Shown: positions 1 through 8,325 of the stretch, one piece after another | How positions within the stretch are numbered: position 1 is the stretch's first letter | Layout of the letters: the number at the start of each line of letters is the position of its first letter | From: Candidatus Desantisiibacteriota bacterium | GTDB lineage: Bacteria; JACRDZ01 | Assembly (NCBI GenBank): GCA_016209155.1 | Contig: JACQWU010000250.1 | Coordinates: 1 to 8,325 of the forward strand | DNA length: 8,325 nt | Reading direction: 5' to 3' | Notes under the pieces: generated by a model | Seen by the model: only the letters and a program-made list of their open reading frames with translations | Databases searched by the model: none | What the model was told of the DNA's origin: nothing | Translations under genes and position numbers: made by a program

Positions 1-1
1 A

Positions 2-226
2 GGAGCTCAATTTTCAGGCAAAGTGCCTTACCTTGATGATATTGATGAAATTATGCAATTTCTAAAGGAAAGCGAGGCGGATTTTTTAATAGTCGATGAA
101 AGAAGCGTAAAAAAACAGTTGCATGTACTTGAGCCGCTACTGGATAATGGCGGATATGTTAGTTTAAGCATGATCCATAGTATTAAGAATCCGAAGAGGA
201 TTGTACTGTATGAAATCAACAGATGA
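2..226 (+). CDS. C-terminal fragment of a probable PMT/ArnT-like (GT39/GT83) membrane glycosyltransferase
   Basis: The frame is open from the left edge of the window and ends at TGA 224-226, so only about 74 C-terminal residues are present and the true start lies upstream. The visible tail has alternating helix and strand character: a lead-in ending GKVPYLDD, a helix (IDEIMQFLKESEADF), a strand with an acidic end (LIVDER), and a final strand (RIVLYEINR). This is the usual shape of the small soluble domain closing dolichyl-phosphate-mannose mannosyltransferase or ArnT-like proteins, where a helix is followed by 'adylvvde' and the chain ends in 'vvlYei'. Such enzymes move a sugar from a polyprenyl-phosphate donor at the membrane; the catalytic and transmembrane parts are not in the window. 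A GTG at 23 could be mistaken for a start, but the frame is open before it and no ribosome binding site precedes it. The family call rests on remembered tail similarity and is moderate. Confidence 0.6.
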   Translation, partial: GAQFSGKVPYLDDIDEIMQFLKESEADFLIVDERSVKKQLHVLEPLLDNGGYVSLSMIHSIKNPKRIVLYEINR

Positions 227-1065
227 TTTTGAAGTTTAATTTTAGATATACATGGGAAATAGATTTTTTGCTTATGAATAATATATTAACAATTGATTTA
301 GAGGATTGGTATCAGACCCAGGCTTTGCGGTCAAGAATAAAAGTAACAGACTGGGATAAGAAAGATGATAGATTACCATTGCTTACCTTAGAGATTTTGC
401 GTGTTTTAAGAAGCGCTCAGGTAAAAGCAACTTTTTTTGTCGTTGCATATAATGCTAAACGTAATCTCTCGTTGCTTAAAATGATTTTAAAAGATGGCCA
501 TGAATTAGGGTTGCACGGATATTACCATACGTTAGTTTACAAACAGACACCGGAAGAATTTAGAAAGGAAATGAAATATTCAAAGGAATTAATTGAGGAT
601 GCTTGCCAAACAAGAGTGATCGGATTTAGGGCGCCTAATTGGTCTATAAATAGGAATAATTTATGGGCATTGGAAATCTTGTCTGAACTTGGATTTTTAT
701 ATGATTCTAGTTTGATGGTAAAGTTGCTGACTAAGCATATAAGAAATATACCAATTGATATGCTGGAGATCCCTAGGTCGACATTTAGCTTGTTAAATTT
801 TGAAATTCCTTTTGGTGGAGGAGTTTTTTTTAGGGCATATCCTTATTTTATAACAAAGCGCTTTATATCTGATGCGAATAGAAATGGCAAGAAGGTTATG
901 GTATATATTCATCCATGGGAATTTGATTTAGATCAACATTCGGATTATTCTTTTGGTATTAGAAAAGTGATAAATAATTTTAATCGTTCTAAAATGGATT
1001 TAAGGTTTAAGTCTTTGTTGGCAGATTTTAAATTTAGCTCAGTTAGAGATATTTTTTTTGATTAG
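223..1065 (+). CDS. Polysaccharide deacetylase, NodB fold, XrtA/PEP-CTERM-associated (DUF3473-like) type
   Basis: This is a predicted metal-dependent (CE4) deacetylase that removes N- or O-acetyl groups from a polysaccharide. All NodB motifs are visible. Motif 1 is TIDLEDW (residues 23-29; D25, E27, D28), motif 2 is HELGLHGYYH (93-102; metal histidines H98 and H102), motif 3 is GFRAPNWSI (134-142), motif 4 is YDSSL (160-164), and motif 5 is VYIHPWEFD (227-235; H230). The PFGGGVFFRAYPYF stretch (196-209) and the HPWEFD ending are typical of the deacetylases found in exosortase/EPS loci. The ATG at 223 overlaps the previous stop (ATGA), suggesting coupling. However, family members usually begin just before 'ILTIDLEDW', so ATG 274 (residue 18) may be the real start. 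Neither site has a clear Shine-Dalgarno sequence. No signal peptide is evident, which suggests a cytoplasmic enzyme acting before export, as proposed for this subfamily. Confidence 0.9.
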   Translation: MILKFNFRYTWEIDFLLMNNILTIDLEDWYQTQALRSRIKVTDWDKKDDRLPLLTLEILRVLRSAQVKATFFVVAYNAKRNLSLLKMILKDGHELGLHGYYHTLVYKQTPEEFRKEMKYSKELIEDACQTRVIGFRAPNWSINRNNLWALEILSELGFLYDSSLMVKLLTKHIRNIPIDMLEIPRSTFSLLNFEIPFGGGVFFRAYPYFITKRFISDANRNGKKVMVYIHPWEFDLDQHSDYSFGIRKVINNFNRSKMDLRFKSLLADFKFSSVRDIFFD

Positions 1066-1070
1066 GAAGG
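1064..1070 (+). promoter_or_regulatory. Ribosome binding site of the GT2 gene, overlapping the upstream stop codon
   Basis: AGGAAGG lies 10 nt before ATG 1081, and its first two bases are part of the TAG stop (1063-1065) of the deacetylase gene. This supports the 1081 start and translation of both genes from one message. Confidence 0.6.
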
Positions 1071-1080
1071 TAAGACTAAA

Positions 1081-1782
1081 ATGAAAGCTGACATAGCAAT
1101 AATAATACCGGTTTTTAACGAGGTAGAAACAATAAGGGAAGTTGTTTTAGATATAATAAAGAATTATAAAGGCGTAGAAATAATTGTTGTTAATGATGGG
1201 TCTACTGATGGTTCTCTCGATAGAATTAAAGATATTGATGTTAAAGTGCTGAACAGTAAAAAAAATAGAGGGTATGGTGCAGCCTTAAAAACAGGGATCA
1301 GTTATACAGATAAAGAGCTTATTGTAACTATTGATGCTGACGGAGAACATTCAGTTAAGCATATAGAACGGCTAATATCCGAAGCTGATTGCTGCGATAT
1401 GGTAGTTGGGGCTAGGGCTGCTGAATCAGTATCCACTTTTCCTTTATTGCAGAAAATAGCTAAAGGAATAGTGTATGCTTTATTTTTGTCGATTTTGAAG
1501 GTGCAAATTTTAGATGTTAATTCTGGGTTAAGGTTAATTAAAAAAACTATTATAGAAAAATATTTCGATTTACTTCCTGATGGGTTTTCATTTACTTCAA
1601 CTCTTACTTTAACTATGGTTTTAGAAAAAAAGAAAGTGAAGTATGTCCCGGTAACTGATTTTAAAAGAAGACGCGGTTCAAAGGTGCATATATTTTCTTA
1701 CACAATGAATTTCATTAAGTCTTATTGCAAGGTTTTGTTTTACTTTAAACTAAAAAAAGGAGTTTTTAGCAAAATAGCTTAA
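1081..1782 (+). CDS. Glycosyltransferase family 2, DPM1-like (polyprenyl-phosphate sugar synthase type)
   Basis: This inverting GT-A glycosyltransferase has the standard GT2 signatures. The N-terminal strand is IAIIIPVFNEVETI (residues 5-18), followed by the nucleotide-binding strand IIVVNDGSTDGS (34-45). NRGYGAALKTG (62-72) comes next, then the metal-binding DxD at TIDADGEH (83-90; D85, D87). VVGAR (108-112) and VNSGLRLIKK (146-155) follow. This order is that of dolichyl/undecaprenyl-phosphate mannose or glucose synthases, which charge a polyprenyl phosphate from a nucleotide sugar on the inner membrane face. At 233 residues it is a bare DPM1-type catalytic domain. It lacks the two C-terminal membrane helices of the GtrB type and has only a basic, aromatic tail (residues 195-233) that could touch the membrane. 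Its presence beside a PMT/ArnT-like enzyme is consistent, because such enzymes use polyprenyl-phosphate sugars as donors. The exact sugar cannot be read from the sequence. Confidence 0.88.
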   Translation: MKADIAIIIPVFNEVETIREVVLDIIKNYKGVEIIVVNDGSTDGSLDRIKDIDVKVLNSKKNRGYGAALKTGISYTDKELIVTIDADGEHSVKHIERLISEADCCDMVVGARAAESVSTFPLLQKIAKGIVYALFLSILKVQILDVNSGLRLIKKTIIEKYFDLLPDGFSFTSTLTLTMVLEKKKVKYVPVTDFKRRRGSKVHIFSYTMNFIKSYCKVLFYFKLKKGVFSKIA

Positions 1783-1807
1783 TTTATTTAAGAAAAGGGA
1801 AGATTAA

Positions 1808-2707
1808 ATGAGTTTTTTATTGTTCGGGTTAAAAAGAAAAAAAATTCGTTCTTTAGCTAAAAAGTTAATACGTTCCAGTATAGGGACAATAGATGGCAAA
1901 GCAGGCAATTATAAGGTAATAGAGCTATTGCATAGAGGTTTAATTTTGTCTAACGCATATAAAAAAGATGACCTATTCTCTAGCATACAAATACAAACAA
2001 AAACCGGATGTAATTATAGCTGTAGATTTTGTCCGGCTAATAAAGATTTAGTAAACTTATATGGTGGGGAGTCTAATTATGCAAAGATGTCGATTGAGCT
2101 TTTTGAGGATATTATTTGCCAGTTATCTAAAATGAAATTTTCGGGGAGGATTTCTCCGTATCTTATGAACGAGCCTTTACTTGATGGGCGACTTCCAAGA
2201 TTTGTCGCAATTACAAAAAATAAGTGCCCGAATGCATTTATATTTATCCAGACAAATGGAAAATTACTTAATAAAAAGATGTTAGTGGAATTAGTTGATG
2301 CGGGCATTGATGAGATATATGTAAACGATTATACGGAAAATGGTATTATTTTAAAACTTCTTATAAATATGGATATCCCAAGAAGGTATAGAGAAAGACT
2401 TACCCTGGAAAAAAGGTCATTAGATGAGAAATTGACAAATCGAGCGGGTAATATTTTTGTTAGTAATAAAATATATAATGTTCCTTGTCTTAAACCTTTT
2501 AAACAAATGTTTATAACCTTCAATGGGATTGCAGTGCTTTGTTGTCAGGATTGGCAATTTTTACAACAAATGGGAGATGTTAAGAAAGGCTCTTTAATGA
2601 GTATTTGGAACAATCATGCCTATAAGATGATTAGAAATAATTTGGGAAAATCACAAAGGGCTTTTAATGTTCTTTGTAGCAGATGCGATAGCAGTGGATT
2701 GTGGTAA
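1808..2707 (+). CDS. Radical SAM protein with SPASM-like C-terminal cysteine region
   Basis: This is a predicted [4Fe-4S] radical S-adenosylmethionine enzyme of 299 residues. The cluster-binding CX3CX2C motif is at C68, C72 and C75 (in TGCNYSCRFCPAN), preceded by the typical strand SIQIQTKT. NEP at 121-123 sits where the SAM-binding GGEP-type motif is expected. IFIQTNGKLL (145-154) and a helix-strand unit ending in GIDEIYVNDY (166-175) continue the partial TIM barrel. The C-terminal part has C227, a CC pair at 245-246, and C290 and C293, in the arrangement of a SPASM/twitch domain that holds auxiliary Fe-S clusters; WNN at 267-269 also fits SPASM proteins. The first 55 residues are basic and not recognised. 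AGGGA at 1796-1800, 7 nt before ATG 1808, supports the start. The 25-bp gap to the GT2 gene indicates one operon. SPASM proteins modify peptides or small molecules, often sugars in glycan loci; the substrate here is unknown. Confidence 0.88.
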   Translation: MSFLLFGLKRKKIRSLAKKLIRSSIGTIDGKAGNYKVIELLHRGLILSNAYKKDDLFSSIQIQTKTGCNYSCRFCPANKDLVNLYGGESNYAKMSIELFEDIICQLSKMKFSGRISPYLMNEPLLDGRLPRFVAITKNKCPNAFIFIQTNGKLLNKKMLVELVDAGIDEIYVNDYTENGIILKLLINMDIPRRYRERLTLEKRSLDEKLTNRAGNIFVSNKIYNVPCLKPFKQMFITFNGIAVLCCQDWQFLQQMGDVKKGSLMSIWNNHAYKMIRNNLGKSQRAFNVLCSRCDSSGLW

Positions 2708-2738
2708 AGAGCAGGTTTATTCCGCAGTCATGTTTAAT

Positions 2739-2767
2739 TTGGTGTCCTTTAATTTTTGTGGTAAAAT
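2739..2767 (+). promoter_or_regulatory. Possible weak promoter for the fusion gene
   Basis: TTGGTG (2739-2744) and TAAAAT (2762-2767) are separated by 17 nt in the 135-bp gap before the fusion gene. The -35 box matches the consensus at only three of six bases and the DNA is AT-rich, so this is tentative. If real, transcription would start near 2774 and leave a leader of about 70 nt containing the inverted repeats at 2789-2812. Confidence 0.22.
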
Positions 2768-2788
2768 AAGCAATAGGTTGAGTTAATG

Positions 2789-2812
2789 CTGCTATCGTGA
2801 GCAGAAATAGCA
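2789..2812 (+). repeat. Overlapping, mutually exclusive short inverted repeats upstream of the fusion gene
   Basis: Two small stems share bases. CTGCT (2789-2793) pairs with AGCAG (2800-2804) around a 6-nt loop, while TGCTAT (2790-2795) pairs with ATAGCA (2807-2812) around an 11-nt loop. They could form alternative RNA hairpins or an operator. No T-run follows, so this is not a terminator. Stems this short also occur by chance. Confidence 0.3.
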
Positions 2813-2842
2813 TAAAGAAAATATCTTAATTTAATTATTTTA

Positions 2843-5221
2843 ATGGATAAAAATTACTTAGAAATTGATGATAGCCATTCCAACCTCAATGGCTTACCAG
2901 AGATAGCAATTATCGGACTTGGCAGGTGGGGTGGAGGGCCATTGTTAAACACATTAAAACAATTTCCTGTCACCATACATGCCGTAGCAAAGTCTAATTA
3001 TAAAAACTGGAAGGAGAAAAAAGATACAAAAGAACTTCCTGAAAATATTTTGGTTTATAGCTCTGAAAAATACGACGAAGAAATTTTGAAAAACAAGAAT
3101 ATTAGGGCAGTAGTTATCTCCACTCAATTTAGTACTCATTTTGAATTATCTAAGCAGGCACTTTTATCAGGGAAAGATGTTTTTGTAGAAAAACCATTCA
3201 CAAGGACATTTCGACAAGCGAAAGAATTGCTGGAGATTGCGGAAAAGAACGGTTGTATATTAACAATAGGTTATGAGTATAGGTATTCTTCTAATATAAG
3301 ATGGCTTGGAGAGGTGATTAGACGGGATGAGTTGGGTAAAATTACCGAGATTGAACTCAACATGTTAAATCCGCTTGACAACAGGAAGTTGGATATGAGT
3401 TCTAATGTTTGCGAAGATTTAGCTTCGCATATGTTAAGCTTGCTACATTCACTGTTCGGGGAGCGAGATATATCTGAACTTAGAGTGGATACAGATATCC
3501 CCTGTGATATGGCAAAAATTTCTTTTAAATATTGTAAGGGATATAACCAGGATATAAAAGTATGTATTAATGTAGATCGTAACTATAAGGGGAATAATAG
3601 AAATAGGACGATTATTTTAAAGACAACTAAGTTAGTTTTAATCTTGGACTATCAAAAAAGCGAGGTTGAAGTTCTCGATATAAATGGGAGTATTATAAGT
3701 GATCTAGCTAACGGTCTTTCCAGAGAATTATTGCAGGAAGTTGAAGATAAAAGTAACTTGGAATTAGAATTTGAAGATTTTTTACAAGCTGTAAAATCAC
3801 GTCAAGCTGGTATAAATTCTGCTCAATCGCTTTTGTGTATATCTGAAACTATAGAGTGGATAAATGAATTAATGGTGTCTTGTCAGAATGGGTGGCAAGA
3901 CAAAGAATTAAAGTGGATATTAAGACATCGTCCGAATATAGTAGAAGAAGTATATCATAAACTTTTATATGAACCATGGTTATCTTTTTCCGTTATAGCT
4001 AGCCAACTTAACCTGAGTCTTAGTTCATTGCAAAAAATTTTGGAAAAGATATTAGAGGATCCTTTGTGGTGTGAAAAGGGAAAAGAAGAAATCAGGAACG
4101 GGAGATTCGCTACAGCGTCTTATTTTAGTAATACTGAAAGATTTGCCGATGTTGAAAGAATTTATAAGGTTATTAGAGGGGAAAAATATCTTTATCCCAA
4201 AAAGGTTGAATTCCATGTAGGTGTAGAATGTCCTGCTAATTGCGTTTTTTGCTATAGGAATATTAATGGGCAGAGACAGGCATATGAATTGGAGATTAAA
4301 GATGGTTTTAGTAAATTAACTCCGGATGATTATGTGAGGTTACTCAAAGAGCTCGCTGATAATGGCACTTCGGAGATCTATGTTTCCGGAGGTTTGGAGC
4401 CATTGACTGATTTTGATAGCACAGGTACGATTATTAATTATGCGATTTCAAGAGGTTTGTTTGTTTTTTTATATTCAAACAAAGTTTATCGTGTTAGTAA
4501 TGATCCTGCTCGGTCGAAAATGATATTTTACAAAGTATTAGGCAGAGTGAAAAATTTAGTTAAGGAAAAGAGAAAACTTGGTTCTAAAACCCAAATAGGG
4601 ATTCAAATCCTGCTTACTTTAACTAATTTTCAAGAAATAATTCAGTTAGCAAAACTTTCAGATAGTATCGGAGTTGATTTTTTAGATATCCGTTCAGATT
4701 ATATGGGTATTGTTCGTTTCAGCCATGAAGAGAAGGCAGAGCTTGCAAGACTTCTTTATTTAACAAAAGAAAAACAGGAAAAGGGAGAGTTTGGTAGTCT
4801 TAGGATATCCGTTCCGGATAATTTTAAACTAATCGGGGATAACGGTATTATAGGAACTTCAATATATGTTTTTCCTGAGGAGAATTATTCTAAACGCGGA
4901 ATTTTCTTTTTTGAATTAACGATAGATCCTTTTGGGATTGTATTCGGTACAACTACTTCAGCAAACCCAGGTATACGCAGAGATTGGGGGAAAAAACAAA
5001 TTTTGGGAAAACTTGGACCGGGGGTGAATATTAGAAATATATTGGAGACGGCTATGGAAAGAGAATTTAAATTAGCTGCAAATACAACCAATGTATTTAC
5101 TAAACAGATATTGCTTGAAATAAAACGAGTTGAGGACAATATTGCTTTAGCTATTCCGTTAGATTTAATTAAAAATCCGTTTGTTTCAAGTAAAACTGTA
5201 AGCAGGCTCATTAAACGTTAA
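2843..5221 (+). CDS. Fusion protein: Gfo/Idh/MocA NAD(P)-dependent oxidoreductase + helical linker + radical SAM domain
   Basis: This single 792-residue reading frame carries two enzymes. Residues about 20-345 are a Gfo/Idh/MocA oxidoreductase: dinucleotide-binding IAIIGLGRWG (21-30), VVISTQFSTH (90-99), the EKP motif (116-118, K117 the usual catalytic lysine), GYEYRY (143-148) and DLASH (192-196, H196). These enzymes oxidise, reduce or epimerise sugars and cyclitols with NAD(P). Residues about 350-450 are mostly helical; SFSVIASQLNLSLSSLQKIL (381-400) looks like a helix-turn-helix. Residues about 453-792 are a radical SAM domain with CX3CX2C at C463, C467 and C470, SGGLEP (515-520) for SAM binding, and barrel units such as IGIQILLTLTNF (585-596). 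The end (about 686-725) has a SPASM-like outline but no cysteine. ATG 2843 is the only good start: an in-frame stop lies at 2813-2815 and the Rossmann motif follows closely. No Shine-Dalgarno sequence precedes it. The substrate is unknown; a sugar or cyclitol is likely. Confidence 0.87.
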   Translation: MDKNYLEIDDSHSNLNGLPEIAIIGLGRWGGGPLLNTLKQFPVTIHAVAKSNYKNWKEKKDTKELPENILVYSSEKYDEEILKNKNIRAVVISTQFSTHFELSKQALLSGKDVFVEKPFTRTFRQAKELLEIAEKNGCILTIGYEYRYSSNIRWLGEVIRRDELGKITEIELNMLNPLDNRKLDMSSNVCEDLASHMLSLLHSLFGERDISELRVDTDIPCDMAKISFKYCKGYNQDIKVCINVDRNYKGNNRNRTIILKTTKLVLILDYQKSEVEVLDINGSIISDLANGLSRELLQEVEDKSNLELEFEDFLQAVKSRQAGINSAQSLLCISETIEWINELMVSCQNGWQDKELKWILRHRPNIVEEVYHKLLYEPWLSFSVIASQLNLSLSSLQKILEKILEDPLWCEKGKEEIRNGRFATASYFSNTERFADVERIYKVIRGEKYLYPKKVEFHVGVECPANCVFCYRNINGQRQAYELEIKDGFSKLTPDDYVRLLKELADNGTSEIYVSGGLEPLTDFDSTGTIINYAISRGLFVFLYSNKVYRVSNDPARSKMIFYKVLGRVKNLVKEKRKLGSKTQIGIQILLTLTNFQEIIQLAKLSDSIGVDFLDIRSDYMGIVRFSHEEKAELARLLYLTKEKQEKGEFGSLRISVPDNFKLIGDNGIIGTSIYVFPEENYSKRGIFFFELTIDPFGIVFGTTTSANPGIRRDWGKKQILGKLGPGVNIRNILETAMEREFKLAANTTNVFTKQILLEIKRVEDNIALAIPLDLIKNPFVSSKTVSRLIKR

Positions 5222-5314
5222 GATTTATGAGTTTCACAGAGTTCTGAAAAGATATGCGATTAACGTGACATCTTATGCAATAAAGTTCGCTTTGTAGCAT
5301 TCGCCCTATTTCAA

Positions 5315-5343
5315 TTGACAAAGTTAAGTTAATTTGATAGTAT
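5315..5343 (+). promoter_or_regulatory. Sigma70-type promoter of the exported-protein gene
   Basis: A perfect -35 box TTGACA (5315-5320) is followed after 17 nt by TAGTAT (5338-5343), a four-of-six match to the -10 consensus. The predicted transcription start is near 5350, leaving a leader of about 43 nt before ATG 5393. This suggests a new transcription unit beginning here, within the 171-bp gap after the fusion gene. That gap holds no convincing terminator: a small AAAG-TTCG-CTTT stem at 5282-5293 has no T-run after it. Confidence 0.55.
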
Positions 5344-5358
5344 TCAAAAAAAGAAACA

Positions 5359-5377
5359 TTATAGTAGCTTGCTATAA
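5359..5377 (+). repeat. 6-bp inverted repeat in the leader of the exported-protein gene
   Basis: TTATAG (5359-5364) and CTATAA (5372-5377) form a perfect inverted repeat around a 7-nt spacer. It lies between the predicted transcription start and the ribosome binding site. It could be a weak leader hairpin or an operator. The stem is AT-rich and may be chance. Confidence 0.28.
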
Positions 5378-5380
5378 AAA

Positions 5381-5386
5381 AGGAGG
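5381..5386 (+). promoter_or_regulatory. Consensus ribosome binding site (AGGAGG)
   Basis: AGGAGG lies 6 nt before ATG 5393. It is the strongest ribosome binding site in the window and fixes the start of the exported protein at the first ATG rather than at the nearby in-frame ATG 5402. It suggests higher expression than the neighbouring genes. Confidence 0.75.
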
Positions 5387-5392
5387 ATATAG

Positions 5393-6097
5393 ATGCAAAA
5401 AATGAAAGCTTTGTTAGTTTTTCCAGGGATATTATTTTTAGGATTGATTCTAAATGTACAATTGCCGGTTCTTTCTTTTGCCGAGGATTTAAATTACGAT
5501 ATGTATGAGTATAGACCGTTGACTGTTGGTACTAGTTGGAATTATACTGCGAAAGGATTGATGTCTTTTGATGAAGTATTTGCTGAAAAGGTGGTGCGGG
5601 AAGAAGATTATAGTGGAGTGAAAGTTGTATTAGTTAGACATGGTTCAGGGTGGATTGATTATTTAGAAAAGACTGACGAGGGAATAAAAAGGTATAAACA
5701 TGTTGGTCCAGATAGTGAGAGTTATGGAGTTTATTATCCGCCGGCCATACAATATCCCAGATATATAAAAATTAATGATATCTATAGTAGAGAGAATATA
5801 TTAAAGGATTTTTCGATTAAAGATGATTCTTTAATTGGTGAAGTTAAGGAAGTTTTTACTTTTCAGCTTTTAGGAATAGAAGATGTTACAACCCCTGCAG
5901 GAAATTATAAAGATTGTTTAAAAACACTATCTAAATGGAAGATTTATAATCAAAATGGAGAGCAAGTTAGAGATAAGGTATTGCTTACTTGGAGTGCAAA
6001 GGGTATCGGAAATGTAAAGGCCATTTATTCTAAACACAGAAATGGCGTAGTTGTTGACTTCTCCGAGTGGTATTTAACCAATTTTGATATTAAGTAA
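5393..6097 (+). CDS. Exported protein with signal peptide, TapB/DUF3108-like
   Basis: The 234-residue product starts with a classical Sec signal peptide: a short basic end (MQKMK), a hydrophobic core (residues 6-25), and a likely cleavage site after LSFA (27-30). There is no lipobox cysteine, so it is probably periplasmic or secreted rather than a lipoprotein. The mature part is mostly beta strand. It opens with YRPLTVGTSWNYTAKG (40-55) and later contains the pair DVTTPAGNYKDCLKT (164-178) and LTWSAKGIGNVKA (198-210). The pattern 'PL..G..W.Y', 'TPAG.Y..CL' and 'GIG.VK' is that of a widespread family of exported beta-sheet proteins related to TapB/DUF3108-like proteins, whose biochemical role is not established. 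It has its own promoter and a strong ribosome binding site, so it may be expressed independently of the enzymes around it. Whether it serves the glycan pathway cannot be told from the sequence; the family call is from remembered motif shape. Confidence 0.7.
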   Translation: MQKMKALLVFPGILFLGLILNVQLPVLSFAEDLNYDMYEYRPLTVGTSWNYTAKGLMSFDEVFAEKVVREEDYSGVKVVLVRHGSGWIDYLEKTDEGIKRYKHVGPDSESYGVYYPPAIQYPRYIKINDIYSRENILKDFSIKDDSLIGEVKEVFTFQLLGIEDVTTPAGNYKDCLKTLSKWKIYNQNGEQVRDKVLLTWSAKGIGNVKAIYSKHRNGVVVDFSEWYLTNFDIK

Positions 6098-6111
6098 AAT
6101 GAATGTAGATT
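6084..6111 (+). promoter_or_regulatory. Possible weak promoter at the end of the exported-protein gene
   Basis: TTGATA (6084-6089), five of six to the -35 consensus, is followed after 16 nt by TAGATT (6106-6111), four of six to the -10 consensus. A perfect TATAAT also lies at 6112-6117, but too far from this -35 box. It could drive the SGNH hydrolase gene at 6187, though in such AT-rich DNA matches like these are common. Confidence 0.2.
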
Positions 6112-6175
6112 TATAATTTTGCTGTAATATATAAATGCTTCGGCAATAAATAAAAAAATATAGTATTTCAGTTTT

Positions 6176-6182
6176 AGAAGGG
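6176..6182 (+). promoter_or_regulatory. Ribosome binding site supporting the GTG start of the SGNH hydrolase gene
   Basis: AGAAGGG ends 4 nt before GTG 6187, a rather short spacing. An out-of-frame ATG at 6185 gives only a 16-codon frame. The next in-frame ATG (6232) has no ribosome binding site and would remove the basic flank of the membrane anchor, so GTG 6187 is preferred. Confidence 0.45.
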
Positions 6183-6186
6183 TAAT

Positions 6187-7146
6187 GTGTGGAATTTCTA
6201 TAAAAACCAGCATGGAAATTTCAAGCTTCGGATGATGGTTGTAGTGTATATAATTTTTCTTTTATTTTTAGAGTTAGGGTTGCGTCGCAGTGTTCCTTAT
6301 AAAAATAGCCTTCCGGATATTATTCAAGCTAGTGATGTTTCTGGGATGGAGTATGAATTGAAGCCTAACACAACCAGCATATTTGAAGGATGTGGTTTCC
6401 GTCTCAAACCGACACAAGTAGTGATTAATTCCTATGGTATCCGTAATGATGAATTTAACCTGCGTAAACAAGCTAATAAATTTCGTATTTTAGCTGTTGG
6501 AGATTCGGTAGTATTTGGCTGGGGAGTTGAGAAAAAAGAAAGTTTTGTATATCTCCTGGAACAAATGTTAAATAATCGTTCTTCCTTGCATCGTTTTGAA
6601 GTGCTTAATTTTGGGGTTCCGGGTTATAATTTAACACAAGAAGTTGAATTAGTCGGTGCTAAGGGTATCATCTTGGAACCGGATTTAATAATTTTTTATA
6701 TTACTGATAATGACTTGCGGGAAGCGATTGATTATAATAATATAAATCCAATACATCGATATTTACCAACTATAATAAAATCAACAGCGATTTACAATTT
6801 TTTATATACAAGATTAATTAGGATAGTAGAGTTGTTTGCAAGAGATAAAAGCCATTCCGAAGGGGTGTTTAGTCAGGCAAAAGAGAAATTGCTTAGTTTG
6901 CCACAAAGTATCCGTGATAGGATTATTTTTTTTGCTGAAAATGAAGGAATATTATCAGGCATGATAAGAGAAAACGGTTTTTTTATAACTGTGGCAGAAA
7001 TAAACTTGTATAAAAATGATTTAGTTTTTAAGAATGATTGGCATCCGAATCAGGATGGCCATAGAGCTATTACATGTGAATTGTATGATACTGTAATGCA
7101 TTTTTTTGAAGAAAATAAATTAGAAAATGCATATAATTTTTATTGA
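6187..7146 (+). CDS. Membrane-anchored SGNH/GDSL-family hydrolase
   Basis: This 319-residue protein has an N-terminal membrane anchor (hydrophobic residues 17-30 with basic flanks K13, R15, R33, R34). The rest is probably periplasmic. SGNH blocks are visible: block I ILAVGDSVVFGWGV (101-114; nucleophile S107), block II NFGVPGYN (141-148; G143), block III in IIFYITDNDL (168-177; N175), and block V NDWHPNQDGH (283-292; D284 and H286 of the triad). The region ahead of block I (YELKPNTTSIF, then VINSYGIRNDEF at 79-90) is typical of the SGNH proteins common in glycan loci of Omnitrophota- and Planctomycetes-like bacteria. Such enzymes add or remove O-acyl groups on surface polysaccharides or peptidoglycan; the substrate is inferred only from context. 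The section between blocks III and V appears shorter than usual (see findings). It starts at GTG, 89 bp after the exported-protein gene, and its end overlaps the next gene by 20 bp. Confidence 0.85.
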   Translation: MWNFYKNQHGNFKLRMMVVVYIIFLLFLELGLRRSVPYKNSLPDIIQASDVSGMEYELKPNTTSIFEGCGFRLKPTQVVINSYGIRNDEFNLRKQANKFRILAVGDSVVFGWGVEKKESFVYLLEQMLNNRSSLHRFEVLNFGVPGYNLTQEVELVGAKGIILEPDLIIFYITDNDLREAIDYNNINPIHRYLPTIIKSTAIYNFLYTRLIRIVELFARDKSHSEGVFSQAKEKLLSLPQSIRDRIIFFAENEGILSGMIRENGFFITVAEINLYKNDLVFKNDWHPNQDGHRAITCELYDTVMHFFEENKLENAYNFY

Positions 7147-8325
7147 AGACTTATTTAGTGAAGATCAGCTTCGCGGTGAACCGCTGAATATACTTCAGCT
7201 TTCAGCAATTTTAAAACAGGCCGGACATGTAGTAAGTCTTTTTGACTTACGTGAAGCTGCGCGTATAAGAGATGCAATAAAAAAAAGCGATAGAGTTATT
7301 CTCGCTTATTCATTGCGCACGGGATTTCATGTTAGCAAAATTAGTTTTAATGCACGGATAAAGAAAGAATTTCCCTTTGTATTTTCTGTTGTGGGAGGTC
7401 ACCATGCGACTTTTTCTCCGGAATGCATTAATGAAGAGGGAATTGATGCCGTTTGTCTTGGTGAAGCAGACGAAGCCCTGTTGGAGTTATGTGATAAATA
7501 TGAGACGCGACAGGATGTATTCAACACACAGAATTTTTGGCTAAAAAAAAATGAACAAATAATTAAAAACAAGTTGAGGCCGCCAGTAGAAAATTTAGAC
7601 ATACTGCCGCTTTTTGATAGAGAACTATTATATCAATATGGAATAAAGAAAGACCAGCCAATAAAAACCCATATTACTTCCCGGGGGTGCCCATTTAGCT
7701 GTACATACTGTTATGCGCCAGCTTGGAAAGCATTATATCCTGGTAATTTTAATTTCTTTCGTCAACAATCGCCACAGCGGGTTATTCAAGAGATCGAACA
7801 TATTAAAAAACAAGCAGTCTTAAAATTTTTGATTTTTGAGGATGATATATTTACATACTCAAAAAAATGGTTGCGTGTATTTGGCGAACTATATAAAAAG
7901 CATGTAAAAATCCCATATTGGGTATATACGCATGTTAAAGTAATTGATGCTGAAGTAGCAGATATATTGGCAGAAAGTAATTGCCGAATCGTAGGGATGG
8001 GGATAGAATCCGCATCTTTTCATATCAGGTCAAAAATTTTAAATCGGGATATGAGTAATGATGAGATTATCCAAGCATGTAATTTGCTAAAAAAGAAAAA
8101 AATAAAGATTTGTCTCGGCAATATCATGGGTATCCCAGGAACACAATTATCCGATGATATCAATACATTACGTTTTAATATAATAATTAATCCTGATTTG
8201 CCAGTGGCCTCAATTCTTTATCCGTTCCCGGGGATGGATATCTTAAAATTAGTTAAGAAAAATGGGATTGGTTTAACAGATTTTAATCAGTATTCTTCCA
8301 TGAGATATCCGAAAATGATTTTAAA
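7127..8325 (+). CDS. B12-binding-domain radical SAM protein, 3' end outside the window
   Basis: The frame opens at ATG 7127, inside the end of the SGNH gene (20-bp overlap, different frame), and stays open for 399 codons to the window edge, so the C-terminus is missing. Residues 1 to about 125 look like a cobalamin-binding Rossmann domain: MHIIFIEDL, LNILQLSAILKQAGHVVSLFD (20-40), VVGGHHATFSPE (88-99) and LGEADEALLEL (111-121). It lacks the DxHxxG base-off motif, which is common in this class. The radical SAM domain follows: SRGCPFSCTYCYAP (185-198) gives CX3CX2C at C188, C192 and C195; then FLIFEDDIFTYS (234-245), VGMGIESAS (289-297) and NIMGIPGTQ (332-340), the usual BchE/P-methylase-type landmarks. 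Class-B enzymes methylate unreactive carbon or phosphorus or do cyclisations, often in lipid, glycan or natural-product pathways. No other in-frame ATG occurs before residue 290, so the start is secure despite a weak ribosome binding site. The overlap indicates co-translation with the SGNH enzyme. Confidence 0.88.
   Translation, partial: MHIIFIEDLFSEDQLRGEPLNILQLSAILKQAGHVVSLFDLREAARIRDAIKKSDRVILAYSLRTGFHVSKISFNARIKKEFPFVFSVVGGHHATFSPECINEEGIDAVCLGEADEALLELCDKYETRQDVFNTQNFWLKKNEQIIKNKLRPPVENLDILPLFDRELLYQYGIKKDQPIKTHITSRGCPFSCTYCYAPAWKALYPGNFNFFRQQSPQRVIQEIEHIKKQAVLKFLIFEDDIFTYSKKWLRVFGELYKKHVKIPYWVYTHVKVIDAEVADILAESNCRIVGMGIESASFHIRSKILNRDMSNDEIIQACNLLKKKKIKICLGNIMGIPGTQLSDDINTLRFNIIINPDLPVASILYPFPGMDILKLVKKNGIGLTDFNQYSSMRYPKMIL

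Follow-up and report, generated by a model that had tools for sequence, protein, structure and literature searches.

Does the long open frame of this locus truly encode two enzymes in a single chain and, if so, what would such a chain do? The window, by which we mean the whole stretch of DNA analysed, is an entire contig of 8325 bases (C181) from a fragmented MAG (G000). Its seven genes lie on the same strand and encode a polysaccharide deacetylase of the XrtA-system type, a GT2 glycosyltransferase, a SPASM radical SAM protein, the fusion under study, a DUF3108-like protein, an SGNH/GDSL protein and a B12-type radical SAM protein. The features on which the analysis draws are the following.

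2843..5221, + strand: fusion ORF, 792 aa in the window and 824 aa in the intact copy (L029:8001-10475)
2843..3877, + strand: Gfo/Idh/MocA oxidoreductase half, residues 1-345 (PF01408; best PDB match YhhX 3f4l, E 3e-16)
2903..3274, + strand: NAD(P)-binding Rossmann domain, residues 21-144 (PF01408)
3188..3196, + strand: EKP (residues 116-118), where the family has its catalytic Lys; aligned to the EKP of YhhX
3416..3430, + strand: DLASH, residues 192-196 (D-x3-H), its His aligned to a His of YhhX
3878..4192, + strand: helical region, residues 346-450, matching the N-terminal helical domain of DesII, with the join at its start (full-length alignment and global hhalign, three DesII sequences)
4229..4252, + strand: CX3CX2C, C463/C467/C470, radical SAM cluster ligands, aligned to DesII C141/C145/C148
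4388..4399, + strand: GGLE (516-519), GGE motif binding the Met part of SAM, aligned to DesII G187-E190
4479..4480, + strand: point at which the window copy lacks 96 bp in frame; in the intact copy this piece encodes 32 aa, among them R566 and S568 of the ribose motif
4697..4702, + strand: D-Y of the beta-6 motif, D651/Y652 (intact numbering), aligned to DesII D323/Y324
4844..5218, + strand: C-terminal region, free of Cys; the region aligned to it in the Omnitrophota relatives carries the four Cys of an auxiliary cluster (twitch/SPASM type)
7127-8323: B12-binding radical SAM gene (HpnJ/BchE-like), truncated where the contig ends and complete in L029 at 12381-13823 (480 aa)

The fusion frame and its join

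The frame at 2843-5221 is uninterrupted over 792 codons, for which the chance at its own base composition is about 2e-30; across the join region the other two forward frames contain 11 and 15 stops, and base composition is similar on either side of the join. Pfam places GFO_IDH_MocA at residues 21-144 (65.4 bits, cut-off 24) and Radical_SAM at residues 461-546 (31.0 bits, cut-off 29.5), and the motifs GLGRWG, EKP, DLASH, C463/C467/C470 and SGGLEP were all found in the translated sequence. A search of one genome per species retrieved one locus, L029, on a 143,880-bp contig (JACQZH010000041.1) of a MAG named Candidatus Omnitrophota, where the locus is about 99.9% identical and the join is the same. 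The agreement of two assemblies argues against a misassembled join, which we reject. The open frame, the Pfam domains and the second assembly thus bear out the preliminary description, which had proposed a two-domain fusion in one frame. It had also named, as a sign against the fusion, a join unique to one contig: the join recurs in the second assembly, but no other searched genome holds the pairing of a Gfo/Idh/MocA domain with a DesII-like radical SAM domain, which is known from this one locus. Long Gfo frames of other genomes (456-799 aa), when checked for a radical SAM part, had none, and a literature search of partial coverage found no paper on this two-domain architecture. We conclude that the frame is a real fusion of two known families, so far from a single locus. 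AlphaFold models built without an alignment were unusable for both the radical half and the whole protein (mean pLDDT 44.8 and 41.4, respectively; pTM 0.29 in both).

An intact second copy

Comparison of the window with L029 over the full length of the window revealed six substitutions and one indel. The indel comprises 96 bp, in frame and within the radical SAM domain, and accounts for the 792 aa of the window copy against 824 aa in L029; the remainder of the fusion frame differs by one residue. The 32 residues absent between 4479 and 4480, AIPDTWDKAVPLILKTSQARISLGAANHETYH, are present in DesII, in L029 and in all aligned relatives, and they include the equivalents of DesII R238 and S240, residues of the ribose motif through which SAM is bound at its ribose (PMC11434129). 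The Radical_SAM Pfam match ends at position 85 of the 166 of the profile in the window copy and at position 126 in the intact one. A radical SAM domain described earlier as complete-looking is hence a fair account of L029 and not of the window copy. Without its ribose motif, the latter reflects either an error of assembly or a variant that probably no longer works as a radical enzyme. Where the gap is set against L029 9637-9733, the matching sequence at the break amounts to one base only.

The N-terminal oxidoreductase half

All the motifs initially read in the oxidoreductase half (GLGRWG, EKP and DLASH) held up on closer analysis, with PF01408 above its cut-off. This half shares the Rossmann domain, the EKP and the D-x3-H with the Gfo/Idh/MocA oxidoreductases (PF01408; YhhX, IolG, UDP-GlcNAc 3-dehydrogenase), and differs from them in the attached radical SAM module and in a weakly recognised C-terminal Gfo domain, the models of which remain below cut-off (PF22725, 17.9 bits; PF02894, 14.4 bits). 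None of the equivalog models for this half reaches its cut-off. It therefore reads as an ordinary-looking Gfo/Idh/MocA protein, nearest to YhhX among solved structures, and its sequence does not give the substrate.

Kinship of the C-terminal half with DesII

The sole PDB match of the C-terminal half was DesII (8hzv, 8hzy; E 2e-8), and TIGR04426 (DesII) was its top NCBIfam model (9.7e-18), as it also was for five Omnitrophota relatives described below. A profile built from the fusion and five relatives matched DesII in the PDB at 8e-28, with DesII residues 67-439 aligned, against 2e-9 for the structure ranked next, and in a tblastn search of plasmids the best two matches were annotated desII genes of Streptomyces. 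As a control, four SPASM enzymes were compared in the same manner; TIGR04317 was their top model, and DesII ranked about tenth or lower with little aligned beyond the barrel, or was not among the listed models. In a tree of radical halves, the fusion, the giant Omnitrophota chains and DesII separated from most SPASM controls (99/100); the order among the three is left open by this tree, which has long branches. By these comparisons the kinship is specifically to DesII, N-terminal helical domain included, and the DesII lead of the preliminary description, which had named it only as a functional parallel, is upgraded to true kinship. A generic SPASM enzyme was rejected, given the absence of auxiliary Cys residues and DesII as the specific best match.

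The fusion resembles DesII (TIGR04426; PDB 8HZV, 8HZY) in its full-length similarity, an identical SGGLEPLT, a single cluster and no further Cys: C470 is the last Cys of the fusion, and its radical half, like DesII, carries just the three radical SAM Cys across the radical SAM and C-terminal regions. It departs from DesII in an identity of about 20-23%, in its fusion to an oxidoreductase and in lying outside any DesI-DesII gene pair. TIGR04426 scored the intact copy at 62-64 bits, far below the curated cut-off of 450.

In the ribose motif, the intact copy keeps R566 and S568 (DesII R238 and S240) and carries G570 in place of DesII Y242, all of which are lost in the window copy. Opposite the DesII acids E408 and D456 the alignment places T737 and N782; conservation is weak there, which makes the exact partners less sure. 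In DesII itself, D456A is inactive, and E408A and E408Q stay active (PMC11434129). Since an acid needed by DesII is replaced in the fusion, a different active-site solution or a different substrate seems likely. Judged by the replacement of both acids, the fusion is not a DesII orthologue, and with E408, D456 and Y242 all replaced, DesII's own deamination is unsupported for it.

DesII-like domains in long chains of Omnitrophota

Full-length relatives of the radical half were found only in Omnitrophota, in eight genomes counting this locus; the frames of the others are all long (1044 to 9548 aa). Scanning 384 genomes from the phylum of G386, the MAG that holds L029, gave six further strong matches, in frames of 1786, 1233, 3315, 9548, 3101 and 1269 aa, and a profile scan of 384 genomes from the class of G386 added one more member of 1044 aa. 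In the profile scan, family members scored at least 340 bits and no other radical SAM protein more than 154, so that the two groups were clearly set apart. Among 336 genomes spread over bacteria there was no other full-length member (best other match, 145 bits), and viral contigs searched for relatives yielded none. A spread of some 385 genomes centred on G000, the MAG of the window, gave neither another fusion nor a full-length DesII-like relative; this was partly the wrong neighbourhood, since the phylum of G000 has four genomes in the searched set and that of the intact copy several hundred. The relatives carry the following domains beside the DesII-like one.

3315-aa chain: Polysacc_synt_2, PIG-L (just below cut-off), GT2
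1269-aa fragment: PIG-L
9548-aa chain: Epimerase, UDPGP
3101-aa chain: TPR
1786-, 1233- and 1044-aa chains: no other confident Pfam domain, except SPASM in the 1044-aa chain

Sugar-nucleotide or glycosyl domains thus share the chain in three of the seven other relatives, and a Gfo/Idh/MocA domain was found in none of the seven. By score, these Omnitrophota domains are the closest relatives of the fusion (29-34% identity, E down to 4e-39). Those of G644, G399, G469, G585, G601, G454 and G820 have in common with it the N-terminal helical region, the C-terminal ending and a place within a longer chain. They differ from it in their partners (dehydratase/epimerase, PIG-L, GT2, UDPGP, TPR) and in four extra Cys in the C-terminal region, spaced roughly C-x(14-18)-C and then C-x2-C; this SPASM/twitch auxiliary-cluster pattern occurs in all seven relatives and not in the fusion.

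The broader result is a DesII-like family of Omnitrophota whose members are parts of long chains, several of which also contain sugar-nucleotide enzymes. One may speculate, at some distance from an even chance, that this undescribed family, joined in long or giant chains to nucleotide-sugar dehydratases/epimerases, deacetylases, glycosyltransferases, a uridylyltransferase domain or an oxidoreductase, forms single-chain assembly lines for unusual sugars. DesII strips amino groups from antibiotic sugars, and most known radical SAM sugar enzymes of its kind come from the antibiotic pathways of actinomycetes. If Omnitrophota repeatedly join a DesII-like domain to sugar-nucleotide enzymes, such chemistry would extend to the cell-surface glycans of an uncultured phylum. 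Giant Omnitrophota frames with few annotated domains are known and have been called poorly annotated (PMC10066038), in a paper whose main text does not contain the words "radical SAM"; the present family would put named catalytic domains on some of these proteins.

Several further long frames were observed in the same searches. The 9548-aa open frame, which lies in one Omnitrophota genome (L152:2-20000 and L153:1-8645), contains Epimerase, DesII-like radical SAM, RNHCP and UDPGP domains. Ordinary radical SAM domains occur in huge frames of genomes of the Omnitrophota phylum, namely G629:C2:100393 (57,756 aa), G423:C5:1883 (25,332 aa), G613:C30:53259 (19,367 aa) and G455:C6:31187 (18,052 aa). 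Near one DesII-like protein, a 1872-aa frame (L150:9385-15000, - strand) combines APH-type phosphotransferase and PEP-utilising enzyme domains.

Separate counterparts of the two halves

The two desII matches on Streptomyces plasmids belong to two homologous clusters, each with a DesI-type aminotransferase, desII and a separate Gfo/Idh/MocA gene. One of them we take to be the lankamycin cluster. Lankamycin carries D-chalcose, a 4,6-dideoxy sugar that would need a 3-ketoreductase after DesII. Between the Gfo half of the fusion and the Gfo protein of Streptomyces, identity is about 23%, a similarity no closer than that of the family. On this comparison, the clusters would offer the strongest parallel for two halves acting in successive steps, and they lend support to the earlier idea that the two activities otherwise occur as separate proteins of one pathway.

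The same idea had drawn on AprD4 and AprD3, a radical SAM dehydratase with a separate NADPH reductase (PMC5461906). The likeness is one of functional analogy only, a radical elimination on a sugar followed by reduction, and AprD4 and AprD3 are separate proteins, unlike the fusion. Taken as kinship, the comparison was not borne out and is rejected: the AprD4 model NF033070 has no match to the fusion, and matches instead the B12-type ORF at 7127-8323.

Proposed function and alternatives

Both folds are assigned by homology, and the SAM-binding residues are kept in the intact copy. The reading that we tentatively prefer, while holding it somewhat short of an even chance, is a chain of two enzymes acting on a nucleotide sugar or glycan precursor by radical deoxygenation or deamination together with ketoreduction. 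The C-terminal half, as a DesII-like single-cluster radical SAM enzyme, would cleave SAM and take a hydrogen from a sugar carbon; the resulting radical would drive the loss (or rearrangement) of an adjacent substituent, giving a keto-deoxy sugar; and the Gfo/Idh/MocA half would then reduce the ketone with NAD(P)H, or might act first by oxidising the sugar. One chain would in this manner hold steps that Streptomyces pathways split over separate proteins. The substrate class, the order of the steps, elimination as the reaction and any channelling are what we infer here.

In favour of a sugar-modifying role we count the XrtA-type deacetylase, glycosyltransferases, epimerase and DegT aminotransferase of the locus (on the L029 contig, the epimerase lies about 6 kb and the DegT sugar aminotransferase about 20 kb downstream), the Polysacc_synt_2, PIG-L, GT2, Epimerase or UDPGP domains in the chains of three of the seven closest relatives, and the pairing of desII with a Gfo/Idh/MocA gene in the lankamycin-type and related Streptomyces clusters. 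Against the preferred reading we count the replaced acids, which would argue against DesII's exact reaction, the low TIGR04426 score and the distance of the Gfo half from its Streptomyces counterpart. A two-enzyme chain of this kind would be a compact protein, testable in vitro.

Net epimerisation or dehydrogenation is an unlikely alternative, in which the radical half would take a hydrogen from a sugar carbinol to give either a ketone or inversion of the centre. The Gfo half would supply or remove the hydride, and no leaving group would be lost. DesII oxidises TDP-quinovose without elimination when OH replaces the amino group (PMC11434129), and the acids that serve elimination in DesII are those missing from the fusion; moreover, Gfo/Idh/MocA enzymes often act at sugar C3, and models of UDP-GlcNAc 3-dehydrogenase and of 3-dehydrogenases match this half. 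Many radical SAM dehydrogenases carry an auxiliary cluster. The fusion has none, although its relatives have the four Cys for one, and the single cluster fits a lyase-type enzyme like DesII better than a dehydrogenase.

We consider it similarly doubtful that the join is a tether only, by which two enzymes of one glycan pathway would be co-expressed to act on different intermediates with no hand-over. The Omnitrophota DesII-like domains are fused to quite different partners and the L029 contig holds other radical SAM fusions, so that the lineage seems prone to such fusions; set against this, the two Streptomyces clusters hold the same two families together, which fits the consecutive steps of the preferred reading. 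Finally, that the frame is a degraded or misassembled gene with a non-functional radical half, as the loss of the ribose motif through the 96-bp gap and a short contig with sequence common to a MAG of another phylum might suggest, is improbable given the intact 824-aa copy in L029 and the near identity of the rest of the frame.

Source of the locus

Window positions 1-8325 correspond to L029 5159-13579, which places a nearly identical 8.3-kb locus in both G000 and G386. Match scores for the aminotransferase query, RmlB and RmlA differ throughout between these MAGs, which apparently represent different organisms of different phyla. Near identity over 8.3 kb in two MAGs so unlike points to mis-binning, and one of them is probably mis-binned. 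Omnitrophota is favoured as the source, since the phylum of G386 is the only one in which the full-length DesII-like family was found, and since the contig of L029 is longer than the window; contrary to this, the four-letter composition of the window is slightly nearer to G000. In G386, RmlB scores above its cut-off and RmlA is fragmented, so a TDP-sugar route is probable there.

Over the 143-kb contig as a whole, genes for radical SAM proteins, glycosyltransferases and GDSL proteins follow one another at length, almost all of them on a single strand. In L079, four tandem radical SAM genes of SPASM-type appearance (2013-6175) are followed by an 856-aa radical SAM/SPASM protein at 7216-9786, and a 1254-aa frame at 12046-15810 contains a pair of radical SAM domains (SPASM accompanies the second), separated and followed by an apparent repeated domain of unknown type.
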